Virus record (IMG/VR): IMGVR_UViG_3300030943_000043
Coordinates: 1-44,712 of that record
Reading direction: 5' to 3' (one strand)
Source: a virus
Length of the DNA stretch: 44,712 nucleotides
The translations under genes and the position numbers were made by a program. This document shows positions 3,228-44,163 of this stretch, in pieces. The notes under the pieces are model-generated. The model saw only the letters and a program-made list of their open reading frames with translations. It was not told where the DNA came from and did no database searches. Numbering within the stretch: position 1 is the stretch's first letter; each line of letters opens with the position of its first letter.

Positions 3228-3698
3228 ATGAAGATAGTAAAGGAACATATCAACGAAATTTTTTCTAAATCAGAGGATAAATTAACATCTTTAGGAGTTG
3301 GTAAAAAATCACAAATTAAAGAATGGATGACAAATCTATCTAGAATGTGTTTAAATGATACAATAATCCCTCCAAGATATGAAATAAACAAAGATTTAAC
3401 GATAGATGTTGATAGTCATCTATATTTGCCTGGTAACTTCGGTAATTTACCAAGTTTTATTCAATTTAATATAGTCGCCGGCGATTTTAATTGTGTTAAT
3501 TGTGATATGACTACACTTAGAGGATGTCCAAAAAAAGTTGGAGGATATTATGATTGTAGTTTTAATAAATTAAAAAACCTAGATTACGCACCAACACATG
3601 TAAGCAGTCATTTTAGTTGTGGTGATAACTGTTTATTGGATAAAGATGAGGTTGACGAATATAAAAGAAAAATATTATATAATAATGAAATTAGTTAA
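3228..3698 (+). CDS. LRR-like internal-protein-family member, one unit
   Basis: I chose the ATG at 3228 because the protein then begins MKIVKEHINE, matching its paralogs. An upstream in-frame start would add five unconserved residues. The 156-residue protein has a tag (INE, then IFSKSED), a head (KLTSLGVGKKSQIKEWM), an INKDLTIDVDSHLYLP strand and LRR-like repeats (MTTLRGCPKKV, LKNLDYAP). Cysteines occur as NCVNC. The tag resembles a T4 capsid-targeting sequence ending at a prohead-protease site, which is inference. The 3' end overlaps the next gene by 14 bases. Confidence 0.85.
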   Translation: MKIVKEHINEIFSKSEDKLTSLGVGKKSQIKEWMTNLSRMCLNDTIIPPRYEINKDLTIDVDSHLYLPGNFGNLPSFIQFNIVAGDFNCVNCDMTTLRGCPKKVGGYYDCSFNKLKNLDYAPTHVSSHFSCGDNCLLDKDEVDEYKRKILYNNEIS

Positions 3699-5040
3699 GG
3701 AATATATTAATGAAGTTTTTTCTAAATCTGAAGATAAATTATCATCTTTGGGTGTTGGCAAGGTTCACCAAATAAAATTATGGATTGAAGAATTATTAGA
3801 AAAATGTGATGATACAAATATAGATTCACCTGATATAATTATTAATGGTGATTTTACATTAAATGTTATAGGTAATTTATTTTTGCCAAATGGTTGTGGT
3901 GATCTCCCGGATTATATTCAATTTAATGAGGTTGGCAAAACATTTAATTGTGTTGAATGTGATTTAACTACACTTAGAGGATGTCCAAAAATTGTACACG
4001 GAGATTATATATGTGATAACAATCATCTAACATCTTTAGAATTTGGACCAATATATGTTATGACATCTTTTTTATGTGGGTCTAATAGATTAAGTGGTAG
4101 TGAAATACGTAAATTTAAAGAAAAACTAAATATTACTAAGAACGCAGAAAATAATATATCAGAAGAATTTATTAAAAATAGTGATAAGCTATCTTCGTTA
4201 AACATAGGGAGGACTGCTCTGATAAAGAAATGGATAGAAAACCTTAGAAAAAAATGTGACGAAGATAGAATAGATGCACCAAATATCACCTTAAATCCTG
4301 ATAACACATTAGATGTTCATTACAACCTATTTATTCCAGATAATTTTGGTGATATGCCAGAGTATATTCAGTTTAATAAAGTAGGTGGTCATTTTAATTG
4401 TAAGGGTTCTGAACTAACTACATTAAGAGGATGCCCGAGGTGGGTTAATAAGGATTACATATGTGATTTTAATAGGTTGACCTCTCTTGAATTTGGTCCA
4501 GATTTTATAGGCGGGTGTTTTACATGTAGTAATAATTATGAACTAAGTATTAAGGAAATTGAAAGATTTAAAAAAAAATTAGGTGCTGATGAAGAAAGAA
4601 TCAATATAGATGAAGGGTTTGTTAAACATGAGGATAAATTGAATTCATTAGATGTAGGGAAAAGAAAAATGATAGAAAATTGGATAGATGAAATTAAAGA
4701 ATTATATAGTGTAAATTCGCTGTTTCCCCCAGAATTCAATATAAATGATGATCTAACAATAGATATAGATGGTGATTTTGGTCTGCCTGATAATTGTGGG
4801 AACCTACCAACATATATACAATTCAATAGAGTTAATGGAAATTTTAATGTATGTAATTGTGATTTGACAACATTAAGAGGATGTCCGAGGTTTATTGAAG
4901 GTTCATTTTTTTGTAATAACAATCATTTAACATCTTTAAAATTTGCGCCAATAGTTATTAATGGAAGATTTGAATGTGATAATAATGATATCAATAATGA
5001 AGAAAAATACAATTACATAAAAAATTTACTTAAAGAATGA
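3685..5040 (+). CDS. LRR-like internal-protein-family member, three tandem units
   Basis: The ATG at 3685 gives MKLVKEYINE, the conserved family N-terminus, and a 451-residue protein. Three complete units follow, each with a head (SLGVGK, SLNIGR, SLDVGK), an IN.D.T strand and TTLRGCP plus TSLEFGP/TSLKFAP repeats. The first and third boundaries carry a hydrophobic-x-Glu tag before Phe: INE at 8-10 and IDE ending near 310. The second reads ISEE at 158-161. Each boundary resembles the site cut by T4-type prohead protease, so the product could be a polyprotein (inference). Units average about 150 residues. It ends in an ATGA overlap with the next gene. Confidence 0.85.
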   Translation: MKLVKEYINEVFSKSEDKLSSLGVGKVHQIKLWIEELLEKCDDTNIDSPDIIINGDFTLNVIGNLFLPNGCGDLPDYIQFNEVGKTFNCVECDLTTLRGCPKIVHGDYICDNNHLTSLEFGPIYVMTSFLCGSNRLSGSEIRKFKEKLNITKNAENNISEEFIKNSDKLSSLNIGRTALIKKWIENLRKKCDEDRIDAPNITLNPDNTLDVHYNLFIPDNFGDMPEYIQFNKVGGHFNCKGSELTTLRGCPRWVNKDYICDFNRLTSLEFGPDFIGGCFTCSNNYELSIKEIERFKKKLGADEERINIDEGFVKHEDKLNSLDVGKRKMIENWIDEIKELYSVNSLFPPEFNINDDLTIDIDGDFGLPDNCGNLPTYIQFNRVNGNFNVCNCDLTTLRGCPRFIEGSFFCNNNHLTSLKFAPIVINGRFECDNNDINNEEKYNYIKNLLKE

Positions 5041-5492
5041 AATTAGTAAAGGAACATATCAATGAAGGATTTGAAAGATCTGAAGATAAATTGTCATCAG
5101 TCGGGGTAGGAAAGATTGTATTGATAAAAAGATGGATAGAAGAATTAAAGTATGAACAATATATTCAAAGAGTTGTTATTTCGGAAATAACAATAAATGA
5201 TGATTTTACTTTAGATACTAAAAATTCTTTAATGCTACCTGATGATTTTGGTGATTTTCCAGATTTTATACAATTTAATAAATGTGGAGATGATTTTAAT
5301 TGTCGCAAATCAAATATTACATCATTGAAAGGTGCGCCAAAATTTGTTGTTGGTGATTATATTTGTTGTGATAACCCTAGCTTATCTTCTTTAAAATATG
5401 GACCGAAAAAAGTTATAGGAAATTTAATATGTAGTAAGACAAGCATACCAAAAAATGAAATTCTAGATTTATTAAAAAAACTACATAAATGA
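5037..5492 (+). CDS. LRR-like internal-protein-family member, one unit
   Basis: This 151-residue protein begins MKLVKEHINE followed by GFERSEDKLSSVGVGK. It then has INDDFTLD, FPDFIQFNKCGDDFNC, ITSLKGAPKFV and LSSLKYGPKKV. The INE-Gly-Phe junction is the closest match in the window to the T4 prohead-protease consensus ([LI]-x-E before G/A). It starts by ATGA overlap with the upstream gene and ends by ATGA overlap with the next, which indicates coupled translation. Function is unknown beyond family membership. Confidence 0.85.
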   Translation: MKLVKEHINEGFERSEDKLSSVGVGKIVLIKRWIEELKYEQYIQRVVISEITINDDFTLDTKNSLMLPDDFGDFPDFIQFNKCGDDFNCRKSNITSLKGAPKFVVGDYICCDNPSLSSLKYGPKKVIGNLICSKTSIPKNEILDLLKKLHK

Positions 5493-5953
5493 AAATAGTA
5501 AAGGAAAGTTTAAATCAAACATTTACAAGAAATGAAGATAAACTATCATCGATTGGTGTTGGTAAAATAGACATGATTAAAAAGTGGATAGAATTATTTT
5601 ATAAAAAATGCAAAGAAGAAGTAACATTTATTGCAGATTTGGTTATAAATGATGATCTAACTATAAATAGTATGTCTAATCTAGTATTTCCGGATAATAT
5701 CGGTGAACTGCCTTCATATATTCAATTTAATAAAGTTTATGGATATTTTAATTGTAACCGTTGTGAATTGAAAACATTAAGAGGATGTCCAAAAGAAGTA
5801 ATTGTAAACTATAAATGTCAGACAAATAAATTAACATCATTAGAATATGGTCCTACTTTCGTAAAAGGATATCTTGATTGTGAAGGAAACAATATCCCAA
5901 CAGAAGAAGTTGATAAATTTAAACATATTTTATACATAACTAAAGATATATGA
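5489..5953 (+). CDS. LRR-like internal-protein-family member, one unit, tag altered
   Basis: The 154-residue protein begins MKIVKESLNQTFTRNEDKLSS. Glu of the usual INE/LNE tag is Gln here, so a Glu-specific protease might not cut it. The remainder is standard: IGVGK head, INDDLTINSMSNLVFPDN, YIQFNKVYGYFNC, LKTLRGCPKEV and LTSLEYGP. Its N-terminal segment is almost identical to that of the gene at 6657, which suggests recent duplication or gene conversion. ATGA overlaps join it on both sides. Confidence 0.85.
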   Translation: MKIVKESLNQTFTRNEDKLSSIGVGKIDMIKKWIELFYKKCKEEVTFIADLVINDDLTINSMSNLVFPDNIGELPSYIQFNKVYGYFNCNRCELKTLRGCPKEVIVNYKCQTNKLTSLEYGPTFVKGYLDCEGNNIPTEEVDKFKHILYITKDI

Positions 5954-6660
5954 AATTTATAAGAGAAACATTATATGAAGGATTTGTTCGTTCTGGTTCA
6001 GACAAACTTTCATCATTAGGTATTGGTAAAATTCAACTCATAAAGGAATGGGTTGAAAAGATAGATCTTAAAAATTATACAATCAATGATGATTATACAA
6101 TTGATGTCATAGGTACTATTAATCTTTATCAAAAAATTATTCCTGAATATATTCATTTTGGGATAGTTAAAGGATATTTTAATTGTTCTGAAACTGGAAT
6201 TAAAACATTAAATGGTTTAATTAAACAATGTTGGAGTTTTTCGTGCATAGGAAATGAATTAAAATCTTTAGAAGGAGGACCAACATCAGTACGTGGCGTA
6301 TATAATTGTTCTGAAAATTTATTGACATCATTAAAAGGAGTGTCAAAAGATGTAACCTCTCTTTTTTGTGATCATAATAACTTACGTGATTTGGAATATT
6401 GTCCTATGAATAAAGACGGTATGTTAATAAGTCTTTTTTGTCAAAATAATTTATTAACTTCTTTAAAGGGGTCTCCAAAAATCATAGAAGGGGATTTTAG
6501 TATACAGGATAATTTGTTAAAATCATTGAAATACGCACCCAAATCAGTAAGTGGTGATATTTGGTTAGGAACCAATAATTTATCAGCATCAGAAATAAAA
6601 TTTTATAAAAATAGTATAGTATTAGGTGGTAAAATATATTCAAAAAATCAATCTAAATGA
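5950..6660 (+). CDS. LRR-like internal-protein-family member with an extended repeat tract
   Basis: The 236-residue protein has the N-terminus MKFIRETLYE then GFVRSGSDKLSSLGIGK. Unlike the other single-unit paralogs it carries about six LRR-like turns instead of two: IKTLNGLIK, LKSLEGGPTSV, LTSLKGVSKDV, LRDLEYCP, LTSLKGSPKII and LKSLKYAPKSV, with CxxN or QDN spacers. The fold would be a longer right-handed solenoid. It shows that repeat number varies while the head stays constant. ATGA overlaps join both neighbours. Confidence 0.85.
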   Translation: MKFIRETLYEGFVRSGSDKLSSLGIGKIQLIKEWVEKIDLKNYTINDDYTIDVIGTINLYQKIIPEYIHFGIVKGYFNCSETGIKTLNGLIKQCWSFSCIGNELKSLEGGPTSVRGVYNCSENLLTSLKGVSKDVTSLFCDHNNLRDLEYCPMNKDGMLISLFCQNNLLTSLKGSPKIIEGDFSIQDNLLKSLKYAPKSVSGDIWLGTNNLSASEIKFYKNSIVLGGKIYSKNQSK

Positions 6661-7286
6661 AATTAGTAAAGGAAAGTTTAAATCAAACATTTACGAGAAG
6701 TGAAAGCAATGATAAATTATCATCACTTGGTGTAGGTAAAATAGCAGCTACAAAAGCATATTTGGATGATATGGCAATCACAGAATTTGATGATAATGAA
6801 GATGGAACTATAGATGTATATTGTCCTTATGCATTAGATGCTGATAATTTAGAGAATTTATTAAATTTATCACCGTCATATATAAAAATACGTAATATTT
6901 TTGAAGATCCGCAGGAGTTGGAATACGCTCCAATTTTAAAAAGAGAGATTATAGATTATAAATTAAAAGGTGGGATTACAATAAAAACAATGCATATTTT
7001 TATGACTGAAGAAAATTATACATTTGATTTTTTATTTTCTGATGATAAAAATATACATTTTGTATCCTATTTTGAAATAGGTCCAGGTAGTAATTTTAGT
7101 GGAAAAGAATCAAAGGATTATGTTTACATTGAATGTGATGGAGGTAAATCATATCACTTAGACGCTGATAAATGGATAGATCTTTTAGGACAATATGGAA
7201 ATTTATCAATTATGATATTGATTTCGGCTTTATATTATGGTGACACAAGTGAGATAAAAAACATATCGGATTATATTAAGTATTAG
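6657..7286 (+). CDS. Family head fused to a different C-terminal domain
   Basis: The 209-residue protein begins MKLVKESLNQTFTRSESNDKLSSLGVGK, the family N-terminus, but lacks the LRR-like repeats. After the head the sequence (DEDGTIDVYCPYALDADNLENL onward) turns into an unrelated beta-rich domain with FLFSDDKNIHFVSYFEIGPGS and YVYIECDGGKSYHLDADKWIDLLGQYG. I do not recognise that domain. The arrangement suggests the N-terminal part acts as a portable targeting module. Its 3' end overlaps the convergent minus-strand gene by 11 bases. Confidence 0.8.
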   Translation: MKLVKESLNQTFTRSESNDKLSSLGVGKIAATKAYLDDMAITEFDDNEDGTIDVYCPYALDADNLENLLNLSPSYIKIRNIFEDPQELEYAPILKREIIDYKLKGGITIKTMHIFMTEENYTFDFLFSDDKNIHFVSYFEIGPGSNFSGKESKDYVYIECDGGKSYHLDADKWIDLLGQYGNLSIMILISALYYGDTSEIKNISDYIKY

Positions 7287-7803
7287 GGCTAGTTTTATTT
7301 CCTATAGTTTCAATTAATTCGAATCCCCATACAGGTTCATAATGAGATTGCAAAGCCTCTTCTATTGTTTTACCTAACTCATCAATACCAGGGTCTCCAA
7401 ATTTACCTATATCGAAAACTCTCTTTTGTTTATGTGTATCATCTTTTGGTGAATCTCTAAAATACACTATATTTTCAAACACGCTTAAATCATGAGTATT
7501 TAATTCATAACCATGGGAAGTATAACTATCCTTATATTCATTTGTAAAATATTTCGGATATTCAACATATTTCATGATATATTTTAGATTTTCTAATCTC
7601 CATTTATCTTGCATATTATCAAGATATTCCTTTTTTACAAATATTTCTATGTGATCGAGATCAATTATCTTATATGTTAAATACATATGATCATTATACA
7701 TTTTATCTAATTTGTCCTTTATCTTTTTGTATTTTCCTACACCCAACGTTGCCAGAGAATTTTCTCCTTGTTTAAATCCTTCATTAACCATTTTAGCTCT
7801 CAT
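7276..7803 (-). CDS. Minus-strand relative of the family head with unique C-terminus
   Basis: This 175-residue protein starts MRAKMVNE then GFKQGENSLATLGVGKYKKIKDKL, clearly the family tag and head. It continues with a non-LRR domain (IDLDHIEIFVKKEYLDNMQDKW and so on) that I do not recognise. It is the only complete minus-strand gene in the window. A GATATATAGAATAAAA element lies 24 bases before its ATG, so it has its own promoter. Convergent with the gene at 6657, it overlaps that gene by 11 bases. Confidence 0.8.
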   Translation of the reverse strand: MRAKMVNEGFKQGENSLATLGVGKYKKIKDKLDKMYNDHMYLTYKIIDLDHIEIFVKKEYLDNMQDKWRLENLKYIMKYVEYPKYFTNEYKDSYTSHGYELNTHDLSVFENIVYFRDSPKDDTHKQKRVFDIGKFGDPGIDELGKTIEEALQSHYEPVWGFELIETIGNKTSPNT

Positions 7804-7811
7804 TAAATGTA

Positions 7812-7827
7812 TTTTATTCTATATATC
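7812..7827 (-). promoter_or_regulatory. Putative phage promoter for the minus-strand gene
   Basis: Read on the minus strand the sequence is GATATATAGAATAAAA, about 24 bases before the ATG at 7803. The same element occurs on the plus strand before 18560 and 39983. Its presence in the opposite orientation before the only minus-strand gene supports a promoter role over mere AT richness. Confidence 0.5.
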
Positions 7828-7884
7828 TCGAATAAGAACTTAACGGCTTCAAACCTATATAAAATACAAGGACTATCATCTTCA

Positions 7885-7899: not shown

Positions 7900-7916
7900 T
7901 TTTAAATAATAAGGAT

Positions 7917-9746
7917 ATGAGTTTAAATACAATCAATGAATCGATAGAAAAATTAGGATTGACTGCAGTCCAAAAAATACTATCGGAGGAAGTTATCATC
8001 ACAGAAAAAATCGATACATACCGTATTCTTTTTGAAAGAGTTGGGGATACTATAAACTTCTATAAGAAGGATAATACACCCATTGATTTGGTATCTCGAA
8101 CACTTACCGATATCTACGAAGATTCTATCACTGAACTTTCAATCTTGATAGAAAATGCGAATGTACCAGAAAACATGAGATTTGGGCTATATTACACACC
8201 AAATGAAAGACCTCTGAGGATACCATACATGAATATTCCAAAGTACATCCTTACTGATATAACATGTAAAAATGGTGCAAAACCTGAATGTTTGGACTAT
8301 GATATGGTCACTGAATGGGCAGGAAATTTATGTATTGGAATGCCTCCTATCATATTCAAAGGAAAACTATCACAAGATCAGATATCGAAACTGATAGCAT
8401 ATGATAATAAAACATTCATGGATGATTATGAAGATACTGCAACTAATTTTTCTCATATATTAACAGGAACCATTAATTCACCATATTCTAAACAAGACAT
8501 AATTGAAGGCATCATAATCAAATCAAAGGATAAACTTTTTCAAGTTATTTCATATGAGTTCGATATTTTAAATGAGGCGTACGAACACATAACTGTCCCA
8601 AGAGATTTTTATGATCTTACTCTGATGAGTGTTATAAATTTTCTAAATGAATATTCTCTTGCTCTGCCTTCCAATGTAAATAAGGAAACAGCGTATATTT
8701 CAATAATAAACGACATCTTCAATAAATATTGTGCAAAAAACAATCTAAATGAATCCATTGAATTAAAGTATTTAACACCAAGACAGTATGGCTACGCAGG
8801 AGAATTGAATAAAAAGTTCATAAACAACAAAGAAACTTTGACCATTCTATCAAAAGGAAAGATATATGAGGGCCTATACAAGGTGATACTTTCTTCATTT
8901 AGAAAAAACAAGAAGCCTTACGGTTTGTTAAATGAAAGTATGATAGAGAAATTTAATACGTATGTATATTTGATAAACACCGCAATTAACAATTTCGATA
9001 TCGAACCTGAAATATTGAATGAAGCTGACGAACCTGAAGTTTCTGTTGATCTTAACAAGGAGATGGACAAGGAAAAGGAAAATGATAACGTTGTTGTTGA
9101 TGCAATAAATAGAAGAGAATACACTGATGTTGATAATATGAGAGTTATATCATCAATACAGGTTGCATTTGAACCTAAGGCTAGGGATATTACAAAAGGA
9201 AAGACAAAATGTGCTATCTATCTCACAACATATAGACCATTTTCCAATGCTCAAATGGAAAACATCAATAAGATCATAGATAAATGGAATGTTCCAGTTA
9301 TCATCGCCGCTATAAGTAATAAATACAAGATGATTGGCACTGATTTTATTTTAAGTGATGAACTTGTTAAATCTCAAATGTCTGCCATTTGTAATTTTAA
9401 TAAGGAAACCGTTCCTTTTAATATCATGTTGGATTCTTGGAATCTAAAGGAGATTTTTGAATATTGTAGACCTGATTATGAACCAATTGTGATAATAACT
9501 GACATTGATAAAAAATCTGATCTTATGTTACAACTTTATTTTGAAGAGGAGATGATGGGTCATAGAATAAATGTTGATAAGGATTTTAACATAGGAGAGT
9601 TAGATAACACAGATAGGTTAATGGCGTTAAGAAGTATAGAGGATTCTGATGCAAGTTCATTTAACACATTAGTACCTCAGGCTATAAAGAATTTTTACTA
9701 CAACATTATTGAAGAATATAAAATATGGGTACCTAATAAACGATGA
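7917..9746 (+). CDS. RNA/DNA ligase-like domain fused to nucleotidyltransferase-like domain
   Basis: In this 609-residue protein the N-terminal ~250 residues resemble covalent nucleotidyltransferases (ligases). Motif I is EKIDTYR with K31 as the likely AMP-accepting lysine. A motif III-like FGLYYTPNERPL block precedes motif IV, EGIIIK at 197-202. A charged linker (~365-400) follows. The C-terminal ~200 residues (CAIYLTTYRPFSNAQMENI, then IAAIS, ending ALRSIEDSDASSFNTLVP) look like a HIGH-type cytidylyl/adenylyltransferase fold. The usual HxGH is not evident, so that domain may be inactive. The N-terminus MSLNTINES resembles the packaged-protein tags. A repair or sealing role is plausible; substrate is unknown. 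Confidence 0.6.
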   Translation: MSLNTINESIEKLGLTAVQKILSEEVIITEKIDTYRILFERVGDTINFYKKDNTPIDLVSRTLTDIYEDSITELSILIENANVPENMRFGLYYTPNERPLRIPYMNIPKYILTDITCKNGAKPECLDYDMVTEWAGNLCIGMPPIIFKGKLSQDQISKLIAYDNKTFMDDYEDTATNFSHILTGTINSPYSKQDIIEGIIIKSKDKLFQVISYEFDILNEAYEHITVPRDFYDLTLMSVINFLNEYSLALPSNVNKETAYISIINDIFNKYCAKNNLNESIELKYLTPRQYGYAGELNKKFINNKETLTILSKGKIYEGLYKVILSSFRKNKKPYGLLNESMIEKFNTYVYLINTAINNFDIEPEILNEADEPEVSVDLNKEMDKEKENDNVVVDAINRREYTDVDNMRVISSIQVAFEPKARDITKGKTKCAIYLTTYRPFSNAQMENINKIIDKWNVPVIIAAISNKYKMIGTDFILSDELVKSQMSAICNFNKETVPFNIMLDSWNLKEIFEYCRPDYEPIVIITDIDKKSDLMLQLYFEEEMMGHRINVDKDFNIGELDNTDRLMALRSIEDSDASSFNTLVPQAIKNFYYNIIEEYKIWVPNKR

Positions 9747-10741
9747 AATTAATCAAGGAATCTATAGAACACACATTTATAAGAGGAGACAAGGATAAAT
9801 TATCTAATTTAGGTTTAGGTAAAAGGGAAATTGTATATAAGTGGTTATTAGATAATTATACAGAAAAACGTATAGATATATTTATAATAAATGATGATTT
9901 TTCTATAGATGCATCTGGCGATATTTTTATTAGAGATTTTGCTGGAAACCTTCCAGAATTTATTCAATTTAGAAATATTTACGGTTCATTTTCATGTACT
10001 AATTCCGACTTAACAACACTGCGAGGTGGACCTGTCCGCGTAACTGGAGATTATTTTTGTAATTATAATAAGATGAAAACATTAGATTTTGCACCTATGT
10101 TTGTTGGTGGTGATTTTTCAATTGAATATAATGAATTAAAAATGATTGAAATAGCCTTATTTGCAAATAGAAAACCATATATTGGTGGTACAATAACATT
10201 TGGAGGAAGAGAAATAAGTGGAAGGAGTTTTATAAATGGGTTTTTTGAAAATTACAAACCAAACGTGTATGAATCATTTACCAAAAGTAATGATAAATTA
10301 TCAAATATTGGTGTCGGAAAAATAACACTTATAAAAAAGTGGTTGGAAGATGACTACGGTTTGCAATTAAATAAATATACACTTAGAGATGATTTAAGTA
10401 TAGATGTAGGAACATCTATTACTCTTCCAGATGGATTTGGGAATCTTCCAGATTATATCCAGTTTCATAAAATAGATGGAAATGTAAATTTTGAACACTG
10501 TGGATTGACAACTCTGAAAGGTTCACCTAAGATAGTAACCGGCGGGTTTTATATAGCCAATAATAATTTAACATCTCTAGATTTTGCACCAAGAAAAATA
10601 ATGGCTGGATCCATAAGTTGTGGAAATAATAATATTCCAAAAGAAGAAATACAAAAATATATAGATAGCAAACCAAAAATTAGTGGTTATCTTTATTCCG
10701 ATTATAAAGAATTTGAACAATATAAAATATTTAATTATTAA
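9743..10741 (+). CDS. LRR-like internal-protein-family member, two units
   Basis: The 332-residue protein has two tandem units. It begins MKLIKESIEHTFIRGDKDKLSNLGLGK, where the tag Glu is replaced by His. A second unit follows after VYE then SFTKSNDKLSNIGVGK, with an intact hydrophobic-x-Glu-Ser-Phe junction. Each unit has a DDFSID/DDLSIDV strand, a YIQF-type block and LTTLRGGP or LTTLKGSP repeats. ATGA overlap couples it to the ligase-like gene upstream. Confidence 0.85.
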   Translation: MKLIKESIEHTFIRGDKDKLSNLGLGKREIVYKWLLDNYTEKRIDIFIINDDFSIDASGDIFIRDFAGNLPEFIQFRNIYGSFSCTNSDLTTLRGGPVRVTGDYFCNYNKMKTLDFAPMFVGGDFSIEYNELKMIEIALFANRKPYIGGTITFGGREISGRSFINGFFENYKPNVYESFTKSNDKLSNIGVGKITLIKKWLEDDYGLQLNKYTLRDDLSIDVGTSITLPDGFGNLPDYIQFHKIDGNVNFEHCGLTTLKGSPKIVTGGFYIANNNLTSLDFAPRKIMAGSISCGNNNIPKEEIQKYIDSKPKISGYLYSDYKEFEQYKIFNY

Positions 10742-10742
10742 T

Positions 10743-12035
10743 ATGAAAAAAGTAACAGAATTTATCGATAATTCGCAAATATTAAATGAAGACGTAAACA
10801 TTATTGATCCTACACTTGCTCAACAATATTCACAACTTCAAAAACAAATGTTAGATAAGGATAATCAGATAAATGCCTTAAGAAAACAGATTAATACCGT
10901 TGAATCTGCAAAAGTTGAAATTCAAAAGATGATGGTAGCTATAGAACAACAGGCCGCAAAGATTGCACCCGTCCAACCTACGACACCACCTGCTGTCACT
11001 ACACAACCTACAACTAATGTTACTCCATCTGTTGCAAAAAGTGTCACAGTTGCATCACCACAACAAGGAGGTGTTGTATCGGAAAGTTATAATCAAAAAA
11101 ATATAAATCTCTTAAAGATTGCAATAGATAGAAATTCATATGAACTATTAGATGATGCTATAAATGAAGGTTCTGATGTAAATGCTGACGATAATTACGC
11201 TCTTAGAAATATTAAATACGAAAGACCTGCATCTATAAAAATGTTTAAAAGATTATTAGAAGATAAGAATATAGATGTTAATTTTGAAGATGGATGGTTA
11301 TTACGATATTTTGTTACACACAATAAACCCGAATATGTTGATATTCTTGTCAACTATTCATCCTATAAATTACCTTCTAATTTGACATTTTGGATGGATT
11401 GGGCATTAGAATATGGATATAATGAAATATTTAACATTCTTTCTAAAAAATCCAAAGTTAATGAGTCGGCCATAAACGAAACATTATTATATGAATCTGT
11501 TCAGATTTGGGACAAAAGAGATGTTAGTAATAAAGATCTAGAACAATTAATAAAATATATGGCAGCTGAGAACATAGAATATGATTTAGAGGAAGATACA
11601 ATAGAATTTGATATTGATGATTTAGATTCAGAATGGTCAGATAGATTGGAAGATATGGGATTTAAGGAAAGTTGGAAGGAAGCGGATGAACTTTATTTAG
11701 ATGATGAAAATATTGGCGATTCAGACCTTGAATATATTGATTTAGAAGAGCCTGAACTGGACGATAAAAAATTCACTGATATAAATGGAGATATTGAAGA
11801 TGTTAGTGTTTTTTATGTTAAAATTAAAAATAAAGGTGAAACATTAATAGGAAAGATTTTTAAATTAGATGATGATAGTGATTGGTCAAGTAAGATAGTT
11901 GTCGGCGAATTGTCATCATTTGATAAATTTGAATTCGATAAAGATTGGGATGAAATAGATATTATTGCATTTCTAAGAGATAATTATGATAGTGCTGAGG
12001 TTATAACTAAACAAAAATATGAAGAATATTTATGA
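10743..12035 (+). CDS. Coiled-coil/ankyrin-like protein with capsid-tag-like N-terminus
   Basis: I chose the ATG at 10743, just after the upstream stop, giving MKKVTEFIDNSQILNE. This is close in pattern to the T4 internal-protein leader MKTYQEFIAE. The 431-residue product has a coiled coil at roughly 20-75, a Pro/Thr/Gln-rich linker at 80-115 and ankyrin-like helices at about 113-240 (LLKIAIDRNSYELLDDAINEGSDVN). A very acidic C-terminal half contains LEEDTIEFDIDDLDSEW. Function is unknown. The same ankyrin-like style appears in the family fusion at 21780. Confidence 0.75.
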   Translation: MKKVTEFIDNSQILNEDVNIIDPTLAQQYSQLQKQMLDKDNQINALRKQINTVESAKVEIQKMMVAIEQQAAKIAPVQPTTPPAVTTQPTTNVTPSVAKSVTVASPQQGGVVSESYNQKNINLLKIAIDRNSYELLDDAINEGSDVNADDNYALRNIKYERPASIKMFKRLLEDKNIDVNFEDGWLLRYFVTHNKPEYVDILVNYSSYKLPSNLTFWMDWALEYGYNEIFNILSKKSKVNESAINETLLYESVQIWDKRDVSNKDLEQLIKYMAAENIEYDLEEDTIEFDIDDLDSEWSDRLEDMGFKESWKEADELYLDDENIGDSDLEYIDLEEPELDDKKFTDINGDIEDVSVFYVKIKNKGETLIGKIFKLDDDSDWSSKIVVGELSSFDKFEFDKDWDEIDIIAFLRDNYDSAEVITKQKYEEYL

Positions 12036-24076: not shown

Positions 24077-24095
24077 ATGTCTATTAAAAAATAAA

Positions 24096-24112
24096 GATAA
24101 ATAAAATAAAAG
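24096..24112 (+). promoter_or_regulatory. Possible promoter before the MoxR-type ATPase gene
   Basis: GATAAATAAAATAAAAG lies 23 bases before the ATG at 24119 in a 42-base gap. It is a weaker variant of the recurring element, at the same distance from the start codon as the better copies. Confidence 0.3.
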
Positions 24113-24118
24113 AAAGAT

Positions 24119-35018: not shown

Positions 35019-35028
35019 ATAAAACAAT

Positions 35029-37404
35029 ATGAAAAACTATGTTTCGACATCACTGGAACAATTCTTAAATGAATCTAAAACAGTGCAATTAAAACGCCAG
35101 TATAAAGACGTCCCATCAACAATAGTAAATACAAATGCTCCTATAAGAAACCAGGTCATTGGTTATGTAAATGAAAATGTTAAGGTGTCAAAGGATAAAC
35201 TTAAAAAATTCATTGCATCTATCAACGAGTCAAACGTCCCAAATGCGTCAATAATGTGGTTGAAACGTAATTCCACCTTCTTTTTAAAGGAAAATCGCAA
35301 GGGTGTTGATTTTATTAAACTTTCTCCTTTAGGAAAGAAGTTAGTAGAAAAAATGAATTGTGAAATCAATGAAGGATGTAACTGTGGCAAGAAAAAACCG
35401 CCTATTAAAAGATCTCAACGTATCAATGAAGACGAATATAATATCAATTTAAACATAGCAAATAAAGAAATTGTTAAGGATGAAATTCCTGAACCTTCTT
35501 TTACTCCTATGATTACAGGCATTGATTATGAAGGTGCTCCAGAGGCAATAACATCCGATATAGAAGGTTATGATGAAGAAGATTTTAATGTTTCAGAACC
35601 AGAGGAACAAGAGGAACTTGAACAGACATCCTTAGAAAATAAGGAAATTGATGATGTTGAAGAACTTGAAGCTGATGAACTCAACAATAATAAGGATGAT
35701 ATAGATTCAGATGTTGAAAATATAGCTAAAGATGAAGAGGATATCGATGATGAAATCGCCGCAGAAGTTTCTGACGATGAAGTTGATATGGAAAATATGA
35801 ACGCAGATGTTACTGAAGATGATGATGAAGAATTTGCAGATCTTAACAGCGATGATGAAGAAGTTGAAAACGCGGAAATAGATGATGAAATTGAATATGA
35901 CCCTGAAATAGATGAGATCGAATCTGACAATGATGAAGTCGAAAATATAGAGGAAAATGAAAAGATGGCAAAACGTCCTACAGATGAAACCAGAGCATAT
36001 GATTTCAAGGATAAAGGAAAACCAGGCCTTTTAGACGAAGAACTTCCAGATGATAAAATTAAAGATGGCGTTCTTGAAGAAGATGAAGACATCAAACTAA
36101 CTGAATCAAAAAAAGAAAAGGTTATGTCTCTTATTGCAAAGGTTCGTAGAACTATGTTGCTTGAGGCAGAAACAGCAAAGGAAGCCATAGCTCCAGATGA
36201 AACTGATGAATTGAATTCAGATGATCTTGATGCTGATGTTGACACTACAGAAGAAGACACTACCGATGATGACACTACAGAAGAAGACACTACCGATGAT
36301 GAAGATGAAAAAGTCGAAATTACGGAATTTGTTCTTAGTGTTGAAGATGTAGAGGAATCGTTAAAGGAACTTGAAGAACTTGGAATAAACGCTGAAAAAG
36401 TACCAACAGGAGAAGATGATGAAAATGGTGAGGCACTTTATGAACCAGATCAGATTAAAGTATCTGCAGATCAATGGTCAGAACTTAAAGGATGGTTAGA
36501 GGAAAAGGGAGTTGATATCACTGAATTATTTGGCGGTGAAGTTGAGGTTGAAGGAGAAAATGAAGAAGCTGATGATATCGATTTTAACGATATCGATTTT
36601 GAACTGGAAGACACAGATGATGAGGAAGAAGAAGGAGAATCTACCGAAAAACCTTCCAAGGAAAATACGGATTTAGAAAAATCAGAAATCCCAAAAAAAA
36701 AGTCTAAAGATTTAAACGAGTCCGCTGAACCCTTAAATGAATTTCTAGGGGCTGCTGCTGCGCTTGTAGCCGGAGTATTTGTTGGTTATAAAGGTTTAAA
36801 AGCATTATGGAACAATAGAAATTCTCTCTATAAGAGTATTATTTCAACAGGTGTATCATCATCTCAGATGAAAAAGATTGACCAGATGGTTGCCGACATT
36901 AAGAAAAATACAATTGACACAATAACCGATAATGTAAAAACTTATATCGCAAATACAAAGGATATGAGACAAAGACGTGCTAAGAGACTTAAACAAAACA
37001 TCAATATTGATGCTTTAGATTCTGCTCTTGAAAAGGAATCAAAGAAACTTATGACAGGTATTGGTGAAGTACTTTTAGCAAAGGCTAAAGTTTCAATGAA
37101 TGAATTATACGCTTCACTTGCCGCATCTAAAAGATTATCAGAAGATCAAAAGAATAAAATTAAACAATATTGGGATCTGAAGATGAAGATTGTAAACAGC
37201 GATATAGCCAATCAACTTGCTGAACAGAAATTATTATTTGTCCATGAAGCGAGTAAAGCATCTGTTGAAAGAGAAGATGCAAAGGTTAAAGCTCAAAAAC
37301 CAACAAATCAACAAGGAACTGGTCAAAACCAAAATACGAATCAAAACCAAAATACGAATCAAAACCAAAACGTAAATCCTGCTGTTAATGCTGGAACAAT
37401 TTAA
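35029..37404 (+). CDS. Large acidic low-complexity protein with capsid-tag-like N-terminus
   Basis: The 791-residue protein begins MKNYVSTSLEQFLNES, a leader like T4 internal or core proteins. Residues ~150-560 are extremely Asp/Glu-rich with imperfect repeats. A helical C-terminal part starts after a small hydrophobic segment (AAAALVAGVFVGYKGLKAL) and ends in a NQNTNQNQ tail. Several LNE, INE and VNE triplets occur in the first 150 residues. An abundant prohead-core/scaffold or internal protein is possible, as T4 gp22 is also acidic and proteolysed, but no homology is visible. It has its own TATAAATA promoter. Confidence 0.65.
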   Translation: MKNYVSTSLEQFLNESKTVQLKRQYKDVPSTIVNTNAPIRNQVIGYVNENVKVSKDKLKKFIASINESNVPNASIMWLKRNSTFFLKENRKGVDFIKLSPLGKKLVEKMNCEINEGCNCGKKKPPIKRSQRINEDEYNINLNIANKEIVKDEIPEPSFTPMITGIDYEGAPEAITSDIEGYDEEDFNVSEPEEQEELEQTSLENKEIDDVEELEADELNNNKDDIDSDVENIAKDEEDIDDEIAAEVSDDEVDMENMNADVTEDDDEEFADLNSDDEEVENAEIDDEIEYDPEIDEIESDNDEVENIEENEKMAKRPTDETRAYDFKDKGKPGLLDEELPDDKIKDGVLEEDEDIKLTESKKEKVMSLIAKVRRTMLLEAETAKEAIAPDETDELNSDDLDADVDTTEEDTTDDDTTEEDTTDDEDEKVEITEFVLSVEDVEESLKELEELGINAEKVPTGEDDENGEALYEPDQIKVSADQWSELKGWLEEKGVDITELFGGEVEVEGENEEADDIDFNDIDFELEDTDDEEEEGESTEKPSKENTDLEKSEIPKKKSKDLNESAEPLNEFLGAAAALVAGVFVGYKGLKALWNNRNSLYKSIISTGVSSSQMKKIDQMVADIKKNTIDTITDNVKTYIANTKDMRQRRAKRLKQNINIDALDSALEKESKKLMTGIGEVLLAKAKVSMNELYASLAASKRLSEDQKNKIKQYWDLKMKIVNSDIANQLAEQKLLFVHEASKASVEREDAKVKAQKPTNQQGTGQNQNTNQNQNTNQNQNVNPAVNAGTI
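36241..36300 (+). repeat. Two perfect 30-base direct repeats
   Basis: 36241-36270 and 36271-36300 are identical and encode DTTEEDTTDD twice in the acidic protein. Replication slippage that preserves frame is the likely origin. Confidence 0.95.
37324..37377 (+). repeat. Three 18-base tandem repeats
   Basis: CAAAACCAAAATACGAAT is present at 37324-37341 and 37342-37359, with a diverged third copy at 37360-37377. It encodes the QNQNTN tail of the acidic protein. Confidence 0.9.
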
Positions 37405-37410
37405 TAAATT

Positions 37411-37953
37411 ATGAAGGAGAATCCAAACTATACAAAATATAAGAAAGCTTACTATCTGTATAATGATATAGATACTCTTTATAATCAAATAGATAGTAAG
37501 CTCGAAGACGAATCTTTGGATATAAAATCTAAATTGATTGTTGATTGTAAAAAATTAATGAGATTATTGGATGGTATTGACACTAAAGAATTTATAAACC
37601 TATTTACAACTGATAAGGTCAATAATATTACCAAAAATATTTCATTATTTTATGAGGCGGCCGATTTTATTTATAGAAGTATGTTAGGATCTGAATTGTA
37701 TGACGCATGTTTGGATAAAATATACGAAAAATTTAAAAAGATAACTCTCCATTATAAGGATACTATTAAATACAGCGAATCTAAATATGACCTTGCAAAA
37801 GCCTTTACGTCAGCGTTGACGAAACCTTCAAATATCATCATGTTTAAAGATAAATTGAAAAGGATTGCGTTAGGAACAATGGGGTTAGAAGAATTTACAA
37901 AGATATACGAAGCTAACAGACATATGATGTCAAATCAACATAAATTTAAATAA
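37411..37953 (+). CDS. Helical hypothetical protein
   Basis: The 180-residue protein MKENPNYTKYKKAYYLYNDID is lysine-rich and almost all helix, starting six bases after the acidic protein. I recognise no domain and no capsid tag. It overlaps the SET-domain gene by one base and is probably in the same operon. Confidence 0.65.
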   Translation: MKENPNYTKYKKAYYLYNDIDTLYNQIDSKLEDESLDIKSKLIVDCKKLMRLLDGIDTKEFINLFTTDKVNNITKNISLFYEAADFIYRSMLGSELYDACLDKIYEKFKKITLHYKDTIKYSESKYDLAKAFTSALTKPSNIIMFKDKLKRIALGTMGLEEFTKIYEANRHMMSNQHKFK

Positions 37954-38642
37954 TGATGGAACATAAAATCCCAAAATTAGATGATTATATAGTATCTGAA
38001 GGATTCACCAATCCATTCGATAAGAAAGAAGGCGATAAAACACCAAAACCTATAACAGATAGTAATCAATTAAAAATAAGATCAGAATCATTTAACATGT
38101 CTCGCGTAGAGTTTGCTAAAAGAGCAAATGGCGGATATACAGTAACAGCAAAGACACAGTTTGCCAGAGATGAAATCATAGAGATATGCCCTATCATAAT
38201 TGTAGGTGTTGAGGCAAAGGCCATACCTCGTTTAAAGGATTTTATCTTTGAGATAAACAAAACAAATAATATATATGGGGTTGTTCTAGGATATGGTTCA
38301 TTATATCGTCATTCCCAGACACCTAATTGCAGATTTGCATACAATTCATCAAATCGCCAGATGTATTTTATTTCACTAAGGCCTATACAGATGAGCGAGG
38401 AATTAACCATTGATTACGGTAAGGAATATTGGGCTGAAAGAACCCAATTTAATATATCTCCTGAGATTCAACCTGAGGGTACAACGTTACAGAAGCCAGT
38501 TGCTCCAGTGACAGAAAGCGGAGTATCTCCAGGAACAGATGAAGGAACAAATACTAACTTTGTTAAGGTGTTAAGCACTCCAGTTCCTAATTCAAACCAA
38601 GTACAAACTTCCCATATAATACAAGGTTTGGGGCAATCATAA
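37953..38642 (+). CDS. SET-domain protein (putative lysine methyltransferase)
   Basis: In this 229-residue protein residues ~35-160 form a SET-like domain. GGYTVTAKTQFARDEIIEICP is the opening strand pair. YGSLYRHSQTPNCRF (~114-128) corresponds to the NHxxxPN pseudoknot motif, with RHSQTPN here. EELTIDYG (~149-156) gives the closing Tyr. SET enzymes transfer methyl groups from SAM to protein lysines. The N-terminus (LDDYIVSE then GFTNPFDKKEGDK) resembles the packaged-protein tag. A Pro/Thr-rich tail follows. A second ATG three bases later is an equally good start. The substrate, host or phage protein, is unknown. Confidence 0.75.
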   Translation: MMEHKIPKLDDYIVSEGFTNPFDKKEGDKTPKPITDSNQLKIRSESFNMSRVEFAKRANGGYTVTAKTQFARDEIIEICPIIIVGVEAKAIPRLKDFIFEINKTNNIYGVVLGYGSLYRHSQTPNCRFAYNSSNRQMYFISLRPIQMSEELTIDYGKEYWAERTQFNISPEIQPEGTTLQKPVAPVTESGVSPGTDEGTNTNFVKVLSTPVPNSNQVQTSHIIQGLGQS

Positions 38643-39955
38643 TGAAAATTATATCCGAACATATATTATTCTCAAGAGATAATATCGATAAGTTAGATTC
38701 TATGGGTGTTGGTAGAATTGCAGCAATAAAAGGCTGGTTGGATAAGTATAATATAAAAAACTACATAATAAACTCAGATAAAACAATAGATGTCAAAGGT
38801 GATGTTGATCTATTCAATAAGGGGTTAGAGGAGATACCAAATTTTATACAATTCAATGTGATTTACGGAAAATTTGATGTTTCTCATAATAGATTAACTT
38901 CGCTAAAAGGTGGGCCAAAAAAGGTAAAGGATAATTTTATGTGCCAACATAATAGTTTAACTGATTTGGAATACGCACCAACTTATGTTGGCACATATGC
39001 GTATCTTTTTAATCAAAAAATGAAACCAAAGGCAGAAAAAAAATATTTACAAAAATATCCACCAAAGAAAGGATATACTGGGGTTAATCCAAATGAGATG
39101 AATGAAGAGTTTACTCGTAACCAAGAAGATAAATTATCTTCTGTAGGTGTAGGAAAAATATCATTGATAAAACAATGGTTAGAAAAATATAAAGTGTATA
39201 ATTATATAATAACTGAAGATTATTATATTGACACAACAGATAGTGTTAATTTGTCTTACAGAAAAATAAATAAAATTCCAGACTATATACAATTTAATAT
39301 AATTAAAGGTTATTTTGACATTAGTAATAACTCCTTGACGTCATTAAAGGGTTGTCCAAAATGGATCCAACATTCATTTTCATGTTCCAATAATAATCTT
39401 TCATCTTTAGATTATGCGCCTGATTATGTTGGCTCTACATTTTATGCCACTCGTAATCCAAATGTTGATCAAACAATCATAAACGAATTTACAAAAAGGC
39501 TTAAAATGAATAATCAATTTTCCATTATTGATGAATCATTCAAAAAAGGAAGTGATAAAATATCGAATTTAAATATAGGAAAGGTTACAATGATTAAAAA
39601 ATGGTTAGATTTAAATGGCATTGATGATTACCAGATAAATTCTGATTTGACAATTTCAGTCATAGGAGATGTTTATATAGAACATCCTTCCGATTTTCCA
39701 GACTATGTTCAATTTAAAAGTGTTTATGGAAATTTTTCAGCAAGTGGTGGAAATCTTACAACACTTAGAGGTTTTCCAGATTTCGTTTCAAACTATGTTG
39801 ATATTGACAATAATGAATTAAAAAATTTAGATTTTGCTCCAACAGGTGCAAAGGAAATTTGGTGTCAAGAAAACTATGATATAGAAAAGGAAGATATTGA
39901 AAAATACAACAAAAGAGTTTTTTATTCAGTGCCAGTTGTATGGGACGAGCGTTAG
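38642..39955 (+). CDS. LRR-like internal-protein-family member, three units
   Basis: The 437-residue protein begins MKIISEHILFSRDNIDKLDSMGVGR, where the tag is degenerate (ILF). Units two and three follow MNE-EFTRNQEDKLSSVGVGK and IDE-SFKKGSDKISNLNIGK. Each unit carries YIQF/YVQF and LTSLKGGP, LTSLKGCP or LTTLRGFP repeats. The last unit lacks the Cys of the CxxN spacer. The start overlaps the SET gene stop by one base. Confidence 0.85.
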   Translation: MKIISEHILFSRDNIDKLDSMGVGRIAAIKGWLDKYNIKNYIINSDKTIDVKGDVDLFNKGLEEIPNFIQFNVIYGKFDVSHNRLTSLKGGPKKVKDNFMCQHNSLTDLEYAPTYVGTYAYLFNQKMKPKAEKKYLQKYPPKKGYTGVNPNEMNEEFTRNQEDKLSSVGVGKISLIKQWLEKYKVYNYIITEDYYIDTTDSVNLSYRKINKIPDYIQFNIIKGYFDISNNSLTSLKGCPKWIQHSFSCSNNNLSSLDYAPDYVGSTFYATRNPNVDQTIINEFTKRLKMNNQFSIIDESFKKGSDKISNLNIGKVTMIKKWLDLNGIDDYQINSDLTISVIGDVYIEHPSDFPDYVQFKSVYGNFSASGGNLTTLRGFPDFVSNYVDIDNNELKNLDFAPTGAKEIWCQENYDIEKEDIEKYNKRVFYSVPVVWDER

Positions 39956-39956
39956 T

Positions 39957-39972
39957 GATATATAGGATAAAG
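39957..39972 (+). promoter_or_regulatory. Putative late promoter before a virion protein gene
   Basis: GATATATAGGATAAAG lies 26 bases before the ATG at 39983 in a 27-base gap. It closely matches the elements at 7812-7827 (minus) and 18539-18554. Confidence 0.5.
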
Positions 39973-39982
39973 CGATTGTTGT

Positions 39983-41881: not shown

Positions 41882-41886
41882 AAATT

Positions 41887-42153
41887 ATGGCCAAATTATT
41901 AAAGGAATCATTGGATTCATATATAAATGAATCGCTTTCTTCTTCTGATGAAAGATGGATGCAAAAGCATTCAAGTAAAGATGAATTGGCTAAGTTTATA
42001 GGCGTACCTGATGCTGAAGATATTCCTATGGATCTTATCAATAAAAAAATTACAATCCTTAAAACAAAAAAAAATAAAAATAAATCAGAATTAAAATTGT
42101 TACAACGATTGGTAGGCGCCCAAAGATTTTTTATAAATTGGTTAAAAAGCTAA
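41887..42153 (+). CDS. Small protein with capsid-tag-like N-terminus
   Basis: The 88-residue protein MAKLLKESLDSYINE then SLSSSDERWMQKHSS. The leader matches the MK-hydrophobic-K-E-S-L pattern and ends in INE before Ser. The rest is helical with DAEDIPMDLINKKITILKTK and a basic, aromatic C-terminus (LQRLVGAQRFFINWLKS). It may be a small internal head protein (inference). It starts five bases after the virion gene. Confidence 0.7.
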   Translation: MAKLLKESLDSYINESLSSSDERWMQKHSSKDELAKFIGVPDAEDIPMDLINKKITILKTKKNKNKSELKLLQRLVGAQRFFINWLKS

Positions 42154-42157
42154 AAAT

Positions 42158-42682
42158 ATGAAATTAATAAATGAACATATAGATGAAGCATTCATAAAAG
42201 GAGAAGATAAATTAAAATCTTTAGGAATTGGGCGATTAGAACTTATTAAAAAATGGCTTGATAAATATGATTCTACTCGATATGATCAATATGTGAATAA
42301 TCCTGTTATAAATGATGATTTGACAATTGATGCAAATTGTATAAATATTTCCGAAGTCCCATTTCATGAATTCCCAGATTATATTCAATTTAGAAATTTA
42401 ACCGATTATTTTATGGTTGATTATTGTGGATTGACCACATTAAGAGGTTGCCCTCAAAAAGTAGGAGGATTTTTTAGTTGTTCCGGAAACAATTTAACAT
42501 CATTAGAATATGCGCCTAAATATATTGGTAGTCACATCTATATTAATGAAAATGAAATATCTGTTGAAGAAGTTTTGGAATTTATCAATAAGAAATTTCA
42601 AAACAAAGATAACTTAAATACACTATCAACTGATTATAAGTTTGATTTTAATAAAAAAACAAAAAAATTTTATCTGAAATAA
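42158..42682 (+). CDS. LRR-like internal-protein-family member, one unit
   Basis: The 174-residue protein MKLINEHIDE then AFIKGEDKLKSLGIGR. IDE before Ala-Phe is an excellent match to the T4 prohead-protease consensus. It has INDDLTIDANCINISE, FPDYIQFRNL, LTTLRGCPQKV and LTSLEYAPKYI. A C-terminal basic tail (FNKKTKKFYLK) is unusual for the family. Confidence 0.85.
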   Translation: MKLINEHIDEAFIKGEDKLKSLGIGRLELIKKWLDKYDSTRYDQYVNNPVINDDLTIDANCINISEVPFHEFPDYIQFRNLTDYFMVDYCGLTTLRGCPQKVGGFFSCSGNNLTSLEYAPKYIGSHIYINENEISVEEVLEFINKKFQNKDNLNTLSTDYKFDFNKKTKKFYLK

Positions 42683-42687
42683 AAATT

Positions 42688-44163
42688 ATGAACAATTTCC
42701 AAAAAGGAGGTGATAAGTTAAGCAACATTGGTGTAGGTAAGATACAAATGATAAAACAATGGTTAAATGATAATCAACTTGAAGGGTTTTATTATATAAA
42801 TGATGACTTAACAATAGATATCGAAAAAGATGTAAATTTCCGCTTGAAAAAAATGGGAGATTTTCCATCATACATACAATTCGGTAAAATAAATGGCGGA
42901 TTTGATTGTTCTAGGTGTAATATGACAACTCTTAGAGGATGCCCAACATATGTAAAAAAATTCTTTTTCTGTGAAAAAAACAAATTAACAAATCTAAAAT
43001 TCATGCCTAAATACATAGGTGCAACATTTTCTGCATGCGATAATAATATAACGGATCTTTCAGATTTAAATTCAACAATTATGGGTGATACATGGTTAAG
43101 TAGAAACTTATTAAGTGAAAAAGAAATATTTAAATTTGAGAACCGTTTATATAAAAATAACACAAACCATGGCATTCATACAAATGATCAAAGAAATAAA
43201 TCGGATAATTTAAATTTAGACGAGGCATTTATTAAAGGTAGTGATAAATTATCAAATTTAGGTGTGGGAAAGGAAGAATTGATAAAACGGTGGCTTGAAG
43301 ATTATAAAGTTAAAAATTATAGAATAAATTCGAATTATGATATAGATGTTATGAGCACAGTTGATGATAAAGATGGTTCTGTTAGACTTAGTCATGAAAA
43401 TTTAACCGAATTTCCATCTTACATTCAATTTAATAATATTGAACATTCATTTGTTATAAGTCACAATTATTTCAAAACACTTAGAGGAGGACCAAGATTT
43501 GTAGGCGGAATTTATAATGCCTGTTGGAATGAATTAGAATCTCTTGAATTTGCACCAAAGGCTGTAGGTTCAGATACATGGTTCAATAATAATAATTTGT
43601 CGGACAAAGAAATAAAAAACTATATGGATTCTAGAGATAAAAATGTATACCATGGATCAAAAAGTGTGTATACACATAATCAAAGACATATAGATGAAGC
43701 ATTTACTAAGGGTGGAGATAAACTCGTTGATTTAGGCGTAGGAAAAATTGCAAAAATAAAAGAGTGGTTAGAAAAAAATAATATTAAAAATTATAGAATT
43801 TTGGATACTTATGAAATAGATGTATTAAGGACATATCCAACAGAGAATATATACGTAGATTTAAAATATAAAAATATGGAAGAATTACCACATTATATAC
43901 AATTCAGAAATATACAAGGATCATTTTCTATAGGTCATAATAATTTAAAAACTCTTAGAGGAGGGCCAAAGAGTGTTGAAGGAATTTATGATGGAGGCTA
44001 TAATGATTTAACATCCCTAGAATTTGCACCAGAGGTTGTGAAAATAGATACATGGTTTAATAACAATAAATTATTAGACACTGAAATTGAAAAATATATG
44101 GAATTACGAGGAAAATCTTATATGGGTAATAAAAACATTTATTTTTACAATCAATTTAAATAA
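42688..44163 (+). CDS. LRR-like internal-protein-family member, three units
   Basis: The 491-residue protein begins directly with a shortened head, MNNFQKGGDKLSNIGVGK, lacking the leader. Units two and three follow LDE-AFIKGSDKLSNLGVGK and IDE-AFTKGGDKLVDLGVGK. Repeats read MTTLRGCPTYV, FKTLRGGPRFV and LKTLRGGPKSV. It is in a different frame from the preceding family gene. The missing leader could mean that an ancestral four-unit gene was split by a frameshift. This is the last complete family gene. Confidence 0.82.
   Translation: MNNFQKGGDKLSNIGVGKIQMIKQWLNDNQLEGFYYINDDLTIDIEKDVNFRLKKMGDFPSYIQFGKINGGFDCSRCNMTTLRGCPTYVKKFFFCEKNKLTNLKFMPKYIGATFSACDNNITDLSDLNSTIMGDTWLSRNLLSEKEIFKFENRLYKNNTNHGIHTNDQRNKSDNLNLDEAFIKGSDKLSNLGVGKEELIKRWLEDYKVKNYRINSNYDIDVMSTVDDKDGSVRLSHENLTEFPSYIQFNNIEHSFVISHNYFKTLRGGPRFVGGIYNACWNELESLEFAPKAVGSDTWFNNNNLSDKEIKNYMDSRDKNVYHGSKSVYTHNQRHIDEAFTKGGDKLVDLGVGKIAKIKEWLEKNNIKNYRILDTYEIDVLRTYPTENIYVDLKYKNMEELPHYIQFRNIQGSFSIGHNNLKTLRGGPKSVEGIYDGGYNDLTSLEFAPEVVKIDTWFNNNKLLDTEIEKYMELRGKSYMGNKNIYFYNQFK

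Follow-up and report, generated by a model that had tools for sequence, protein, structure and literature searches.

In bacteriophage T4, a 10-residue capsid targeting sequence carries internal proteins into the core, and the protease gp21 cuts after L/I-X-E; positions 4 and 7 of this sequence are assigned to targeting and positions 8 and 10 to processing (PMC9026906). The giant heads of phiKZ and SPN3US contain many packaged proteins that are cut after Glu by a gp21-related protease (gp175/gp245), usually with one long propeptide for each protein and, in phiKZ, with an S/A-x-E motif; a repeated short tag is not described in the accessible portions of these sources (PMC10052503, PMC9026906). 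Polyvalent proteins of phages and conjugative elements are multidomain, are thought to be packaged and injected, and are in some cases processed before packaging, which is ascribed to built-in metallopeptidase domains (PMC5512222). Here, we describe a candidate for a comparable system in the IMG/VR record IMGVR_UViG_3300030943_000043, which was studied in its entirety (44,712 bases; the window) and is a piece of a larger genome: a repeated protein family in which a common head domain is preceded by a short leader and by a site resembling those of prohead proteases.

The family resembles T4 IPI to IPIII and Alt in its 10-residue leader beginning with MK, with Ile at position 8, Glu at position 10, and, in part of the leaders, a putative site of the L/I-x-E type (PMC9026906). 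As in T4, the leader is found on unrelated proteins, and relatives of the phage encode an S77-type protease and a gp23-like capsid protein. Unlike in T4, the sites recur at internal domain junctions, the conserved tag continues past the site, and the handful of T4 proteins is replaced by tens of members with 41 domain clusters, the mature parts of which have no detected homology. In contrast to polyvalent proteins, a separate prohead protease and standard junction motifs are present, and few enzymatic domains can be recognized in the tagged proteins. Literature searches on internal head proteins, on the cleavage of polyproteins in proheads, and on leucine-rich repeats (LRRs) and ankyrin in huge phages returned no title or abstract describing the tag. 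The family probably, by a modest balance of the evidence, represents an expanded cargo-tagging system with T4-like logic, in which predicted internal head proteins are made as multidomain precursors and cut to single domains in the prohead. The record probably belongs to a huge T4-superfamily phage; its other genes encode a coenzyme-B12-type ribonucleotide reductase, a thymidylate-synthase-like protein, and baseplate and tail proteins.

The head domain and its sites in the window

A hidden Markov model (HMM) made from the DKLSSLGVGK..LIKKWL core was run over all six frames of the window. It recovered 28 copies of the head domain in 14 genes, as estimated in a first-pass annotation made from the sequence alone; 13 genes were on the + strand and one (7276-7803) was on the - strand, and the E values were mostly 1e-9 to 1e-18, so that chance is no issue for the repeats. 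A hydrophobic residue, any residue, and Glu (phi-x-E) stood two residues ahead of an invariant Phe in 22 of the 28 copies, again the number reported earlier. That annotation had pooled N-terminal and internal copies and had therefore missed the split between them: phi-x-E, with Val counted as phi, was present in 14/14 internal copies and 8/14 N-terminal copies (Fisher p = 0.016), the six exceptions being LNQ↓TF (twice), IEH↓TF, HIL-F, a leaderless MN↓NF, and a displaced leader at 21780 (arrows mark the candidate cut). The site is strict within proteins and loose at protein starts. Half of the sites described earlier as leader ends (14 of 28) lie instead at internal domain junctions, where the site is strictest, which makes multidomain precursors cut into units likelier than leader removal alone.

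In each unit, a leader or linker precedes phi-x-E-x-F, which is followed in order by a short polar segment, DKLSSLGVGK..LIKKWL, INDDLTIDV, LPDYIQF, and LRR-like LTTLRGCPKxVGGxF repeats. No Pfam or PHROG family put a name on the mature parts, and no relation to known internal proteins was detected. Baseplate genes and further structural genes of the same strand flank most of the copies. The family genes are as follows.

3228..3698, + strand: MKIVKEHINE↓IF leader, one head and LRR-like unit, P1 Glu codon at 3255-3257 (HMM)
3685..5040, + strand: MKLVKEYINE↓VF leader, three units, inner ISE↓EF (P1 4162-4164) and IDE↓GF (P1 4612-4614)
5037..5492, + strand: MKLVKEHINE↓GF leader, one unit (HMM, AlphaFold2)
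5489..5953, + strand: MKIVKESLNQ↓TF leader, P1 Gln (HMM)
5950..6660, + strand: MKFIRETLYE↓GF leader, longer LRR-like array (HMM)
6657..7286, + strand: MKLVKESLNQ↓TF leader, P1 Gln, head followed by a different domain (HMM)
7276..7803, - strand: short MRAKMVNE↓GF leader, head followed by a non-LRR domain (HMM)
9743..10741, + strand: MKLIKESIEH↓TF leader, two units, inner VYE↓SF (P1 10271-10273) in a predicted disordered linker
12032..13582, + strand: 12-residue leader MKILKDHININE↓SF, three units, inner LEE↓SF at 12638 and 13118
21780..22382 (open reading frame from 21717), + strand: leader-like start at ATG 21780, MKIINEHIS..., head without the Glu site and ankyrin repeats
27976..30744 (open reading frame from 27934), + strand: MNKQHIKE↓SF, six units, inner IDE 28480, VNE 28954, VDE 29431, ITE 29917, and LYE 30343
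38642..39955, + strand: MKIISEHIL-F leader without Glu, three units, inner MNE↓EF (39104) and IDE↓SF (39533)
42158..42682, + strand: MKLINEHIDE↓AF leader, one unit (HMM)
42688..44163, + strand: leaderless M-N-N-F start, three units, inner LDE↓AF (43222) and IDE↓AF (43696)

The leader had earlier been placed close to T4 MKTYQEFIAE. The two agree in length (10 residues), the MK start, E6, I8, and E10, but the T4 sequence scored -0.5 in a matrix of 21 family leaders, against a family median of 25.7; on sequence comparison, the likeness is one of spacing and a few residues, with no profile homology.

Conservation of the site in the window and its relatives

Profile searches with the head domain, as proposed in the first-pass annotation, recovered relatives of the family. 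A profile of the full-length multi-unit alignment (A1) gave no match in a relative, and a single-unit model was used instead; searches with close copies of the unit yielded 51 loci. The nearest larger relative, here called G002, is a 405,016-base contig (IMGVR_UViG_3300027899_000001; loci L093-L102 and L112-L124) in which the family occurs together with an S77 protease (E 2e-17). Heads from the window and relatives were gathered with a profile whose first position is the Phe, which kept the Glu from influencing detection; the initial seeds did contain it. Copies more than 80% identical were removed before counting.

Among the nonredundant internal junctions, phi-x-E and the Phe were each present in 47/47 copies, with the pattern phi (I, L, V, or M), mostly N or D, Glu, then S, K, or A, and Phe. 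Positions -13 to -5 carried at most 0.46 bits above background, i.e., the upstream sequence was unconserved, and the retention of phi-x-E despite this divergence argues for selection on the site itself. In the 51 N-terminal copies, by comparison, leader positions carried 1.0 to 2.1 bits and the Phe was again invariant (51/51), and Glu was found in 31 copies, with M (leaderless starts, e.g., M-S-F), H, Q, or further residues in the others. The difference in Glu between internal and N-terminal copies had a p value of 2.6e-7, uncorrected for relatedness, and kinship among copies inflates such values. Leaderless members in loci L033, L041, L043, and L050 start precisely at the predicted mature end (M-S-F, M-A-F, or M-N-T-F), and those of L033 and L043 sit just upstream of multi-unit genes.

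Further counts came from tags with a different continuation. Internal tags of the DP class, found by the part after the site, had phi and Glu in 78/78 cases, a count biased by the retrieval of some loci with a Glu-requiring pattern. The internal tags of G002 had phi-x-E in 26/26 cases, the profile there including the site, with a smaller bias than in the DP-class count. At the leader ends of DP-class relatives, Glu was present in 114/119, some of which were fetched with a Glu-containing pattern.

Prohead protease, capsid protein, and scaffold

The gp21-like protease anticipated for the full genome was found in relatives. A 322,902-base contig (G001), found through a tail protein match at 47% identity, has the same tail module order as the window; a profile search found no copy of the family in it. 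Among its products are a capsid protein of the gp23 type and a protease-scaffold fusion of 796 residues that matches Peptidase_S77 (E 4e-16). In addition to the fusion, G001 has a second, weaker S77-like stretch (E 4e-6) in a gene of 168 amino acids (194919-195425). Besides G001 and G002, five more huge-phage records contain an S77 protease, and the GELDHP and SSRAAG motifs are conserved among the proteases of the relatives.

Putative propeptide ends of the capsid proteins were located by analogy with T4 gp23. They read ALNE↓AA in both G001 and G002, KLNE↓DA in Lak-A1, and ELYE↓NA, QINE↓NA, QMNE↓NV, and SINE↓NA in four more phages, so that in all seven phages the capsid protein would bear the same phi-[N/Y]-E as the family. 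Phi-N-E occurred 8 times in the scaffold half of the G002 protease fusion vs 1.06 expected from shuffling (p < 0.001) and 5 times in that of G001 vs 1.11 (p 0.005); five more distant fusions had no significant excess of phi-N-E in this half. That the family follows the T4 layout (E10, I8) in a phage group with such a protease favors capsid targeting plus processing. The Lak megaphages of Prevotella (PMC6784885) share 46% identity with G001 in the capsid protein and 35% identity with the window in the gp5-like baseplate protein; Lak-A1, searched with the standard genetic code, contained no head or tag copy at the threshold applied.

One tag on many domains in G002

An 18-residue tag, phi-N-E-K-F-x-E-E-S-D-P-I-x-D-M-G-I-G, had 88 matches in G002, and the tagged genes were spread over the entire genome. 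The portion read contained 76 tags in 54 proteins, with up to five tags per protein, either following a leader, mostly of 10 or 8 residues (MKLVREHINE, MRAKFIYE), or placed internally ahead of further domains. A total of 75 post-tag stretches from this portion formed 41 single-linkage groups, the biggest with 20 members, and disparate post-tag domains were combined in one polypeptide. Pfam matches were mainly ankyrin repeats, most domains had no Pfam name, and no built-in peptidase domain was found by Pfam in 53 tagged proteins. The view that a common leader carries variable LRR-like, ankyrin, and other domains is supported in this relative. In the comparison with curated LRR models, LRR_4 stayed below its cutoff (19.6 vs 27 bits).

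The tag is conserved as protein, because its synonymous codons are free to vary and do so about as much as they do genome-wide; recent copying of the tag at the DNA level was rejected for the same reason. The exact tag pattern was present in about 30 further viral contigs and had zero matches in a collection of bacterial and archaeal genomes with one genome per species, which gave no link to a host. In a distant 597-kb contig (G007, IMGVR_UViG_3300020045_008999; L103 and L104), the LRR-like unit was matched at least 165 times. MKHIKPYKIFE or MKHLIKYRLFE is another recurrent start, seen in LRR-like relatives from two further contigs (L107 and L108), where several more proteins have similar starts ending in FE or NE.

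Predicted structure of the leader and junctions

The AlphaFold2 model of the single-unit protein at 5037-5492, built from 67 aligned sequences, had a mean predicted local distance difference test score (pLDDT) of 91.4, falling to 66 at residues 1 to 10 and 56 at residues 11 to 20, with coil up to residue 17. In the model of the two-unit protein at 9743-10741, pLDDT was below 50 only at residues 1 to 16, 171 to 182, and 320 to 332 (the C terminus), and residues 171 to 182 are the unit junction, with VYE177↓SF179. Its predicted template modeling score of 0.50 indicates that the two units are not fixed relative to each other. The leader and the E-x-F motif are thus predicted to lie outside the fold, and the inter-unit junction is predicted to lie in a disordered, exposed linker; low pLDDT may also mean that the segment becomes ordered only upon binding. 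A fold search against the PDB gave no significant solved match to the unit, and in a viral predicted-structure library the one hit, an unnamed protein, had an E value of 0.0045 and so missed the 0.001 threshold.

A proposed cargo-tagging system and its rivals

In the proposed system, a leader of 8, 10, or about 12 residues at the N terminus would carry the protein into the prohead core, where the S77 prohead protease would cut after phi-[N/D/Y]-E behind the leader and at every inter-unit junction. Multi-unit precursors would thereby yield single-domain proteins that are retained in the head and could be ejected with the DNA. Leader and site are modular, being found on LRR-like, ankyrin, and many unrelated domains. 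The sequences themselves show this conserved, modular motif, its predicted disordered position, and its recurrence at the putative capsid site and in the scaffolds of protease-encoding relatives; we infer the targeting, the packaging and presence in the virion, the cleavage, the ejection, and any role in the host. The earlier proposal of leader-tagged internal head proteins draws support from the separable leader (low pLDDT, leaderless members), from the match between the family site and the putative capsid and scaffold sites of relatives, and from the unrelated carriers.

Several observations weigh against such a system. Glu is missing from six of 14 N-terminal window copies, at least seven members start without any leader, and members in a dense tandem block of G007 (150-170 kb) start with MKNLISKEEKDRID, without leader or site. 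The window fragment has no protease or capsid gene, the protease being found in relatives only. The capsid-protein sites lack the Phe that follows the family sites, and P1' is Lys in the G002 lineage vs Ala or Asn at the capsid protein. The part after the site is also conserved (F...DP..D.GIG or F...DKL..LGVGK), which cleavage specificity alone does not explain. A position-specific scoring matrix (PSSM) of the leader flagged few non-family proteins (6/912 N termini vs 3/3573 internal Met decamers; Fisher p 0.003); it is weak as a general cargo detector, and conservation of phi-x-E among orthologs was used instead. In SPN3US, many head proteins are wholly uncleaved, and motif-fitting sites are not always cut in giant phages (PMC10052503).

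The conserved continuation and the invariant Phe are what a docking peptide would predict. In this main rival, which we consider unlikely but not negligible, nothing is cut, and phi-[N/D]-E-x-F with the following residues, about 14 of which are conserved past the Glu, binds a common partner (core scaffold, portal, or hub), one per unit. The absence of the Phe from capsid sites and the predicted disorder of the isolated segment, as is usual for binding motifs, would fit as well. Docking leaves unexplained the match of phi-N-E with the putative capsid site, its enrichment in the scaffold, and the conservation of phi-x-E on unrelated proteins without the Phe motif. It is also compatible with cleavage, as a docking tag beside a cut site. 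The leaderless members, the tagged genes all over the G002 genome, and the massive diversification, seen in the LRR-type matches of G007, sampled members of which have no such leaders, would suit unpackaged intracellular effectors or regulators, i.e., diversifying LRR or ankyrin binders of host proteins with an N terminus kept for expression or stability. This explanation is improbable: the identical sites found at junctions within proteins would have no reason, and most window copies lie among structural genes. Least probable is plain structural conservation without any cleavage, E-x-F being the cap or first strand of the head fold. Although the Phe is in all copies and the head core is homologous throughout, in both AlphaFold2 models the segment has low confidence and lies outside the fold; burial of E-[GS]-F had been named earlier as the observation that would speak against processing. 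Furthermore, M-S-F and M-A-F starters are wholly without phi-x-E, two or three residues separate phi-N-E from the Phe in L036 and L053, and the G002 tag stands ahead of 41 unrelated domain clusters.

Cargo tagging may extend further. Tentatively, and with somewhat less than an even chance of being right, we suggest a general labeling of cargo in this huge-phage lineage, in which one leader or tag is placed on dozens of unrelated domains, the polyprotein is diced by the capsid-maturing protease, and the products are delivered as a diversified set; the residues left at the new N terminus would serve a second common step, e.g., core binding or ejection. For most proteins of huge phages, the function is not known. 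Should the tag mark virion cargo, dozens of proteins of unassigned function in one genome would be placed together in the injected set, and entry into the host cell could be predicted by a sequence rule for proteins of related metagenomic phages. T4 capsid targeting, which serves a few internal proteins, would then be widened to a large modular platform that includes polyprotein processing, and the leader would be a candidate for packing foreign proteins into the heads of large phages.

Non-family proteins with the site

Six further proteins of the window carry the site near the N terminus.

35029..37404, + strand: acidic protein, leader MKNYVSTSLEQFLNE↓S, phi-x-E in 5/5 group sequences
24119..25741, + strand: MoxR-type AAA ATPase, MRKMVAESLDEFAGDSLNE↓GF, LNE↓G retained in the G002 ortholog (2/2)
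7917..9746, + strand: RNA-ligase-like protein, ILSE↓E ahead of the conserved domain start, LNE in three orthologs (phi-x-E 4/4)
10743..12035, + strand: coiled-coil/ankyrin protein, ILNE↓D, phi-N-E 4/4 although the leaders differ
37953..38642, + strand: SET-domain protein, IVSE↓GF, phi-x-E-x-F in 4/4 sequences
41887..42153, + strand: small protein of 88 amino acids, MAKLLKESLDSYINE↓S, leader similar to small core-like proteins of G002, with the leader alone aligning

Across the window and orthologs, five unrelated protein groups retain the N-terminal phi-x-E while their leaders diverge. Within the first 30 residues of all non-family proteins, [LIV][NDS]E occurred at 12.3 vs 4.8 per 1000 in the window; the corresponding figures were modest in relatives (5.6 vs 4.2 in G001 and 5.2 vs 4.3 in G002). 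T4 late-promoter boxes (TATAAATA) were not enriched in the window (18 vs 14 expected); two of them lie immediately upstream of 7917 and 35029. The SET-domain protein (Pfam E 8e-13) lies in the phage structural region and is conserved in relatives. At 22379-25741, a VWA/DUF2201 metallopeptidase-like gene adjoins the MoxR AAA ATPase gene with the LNE↓GF leader site.

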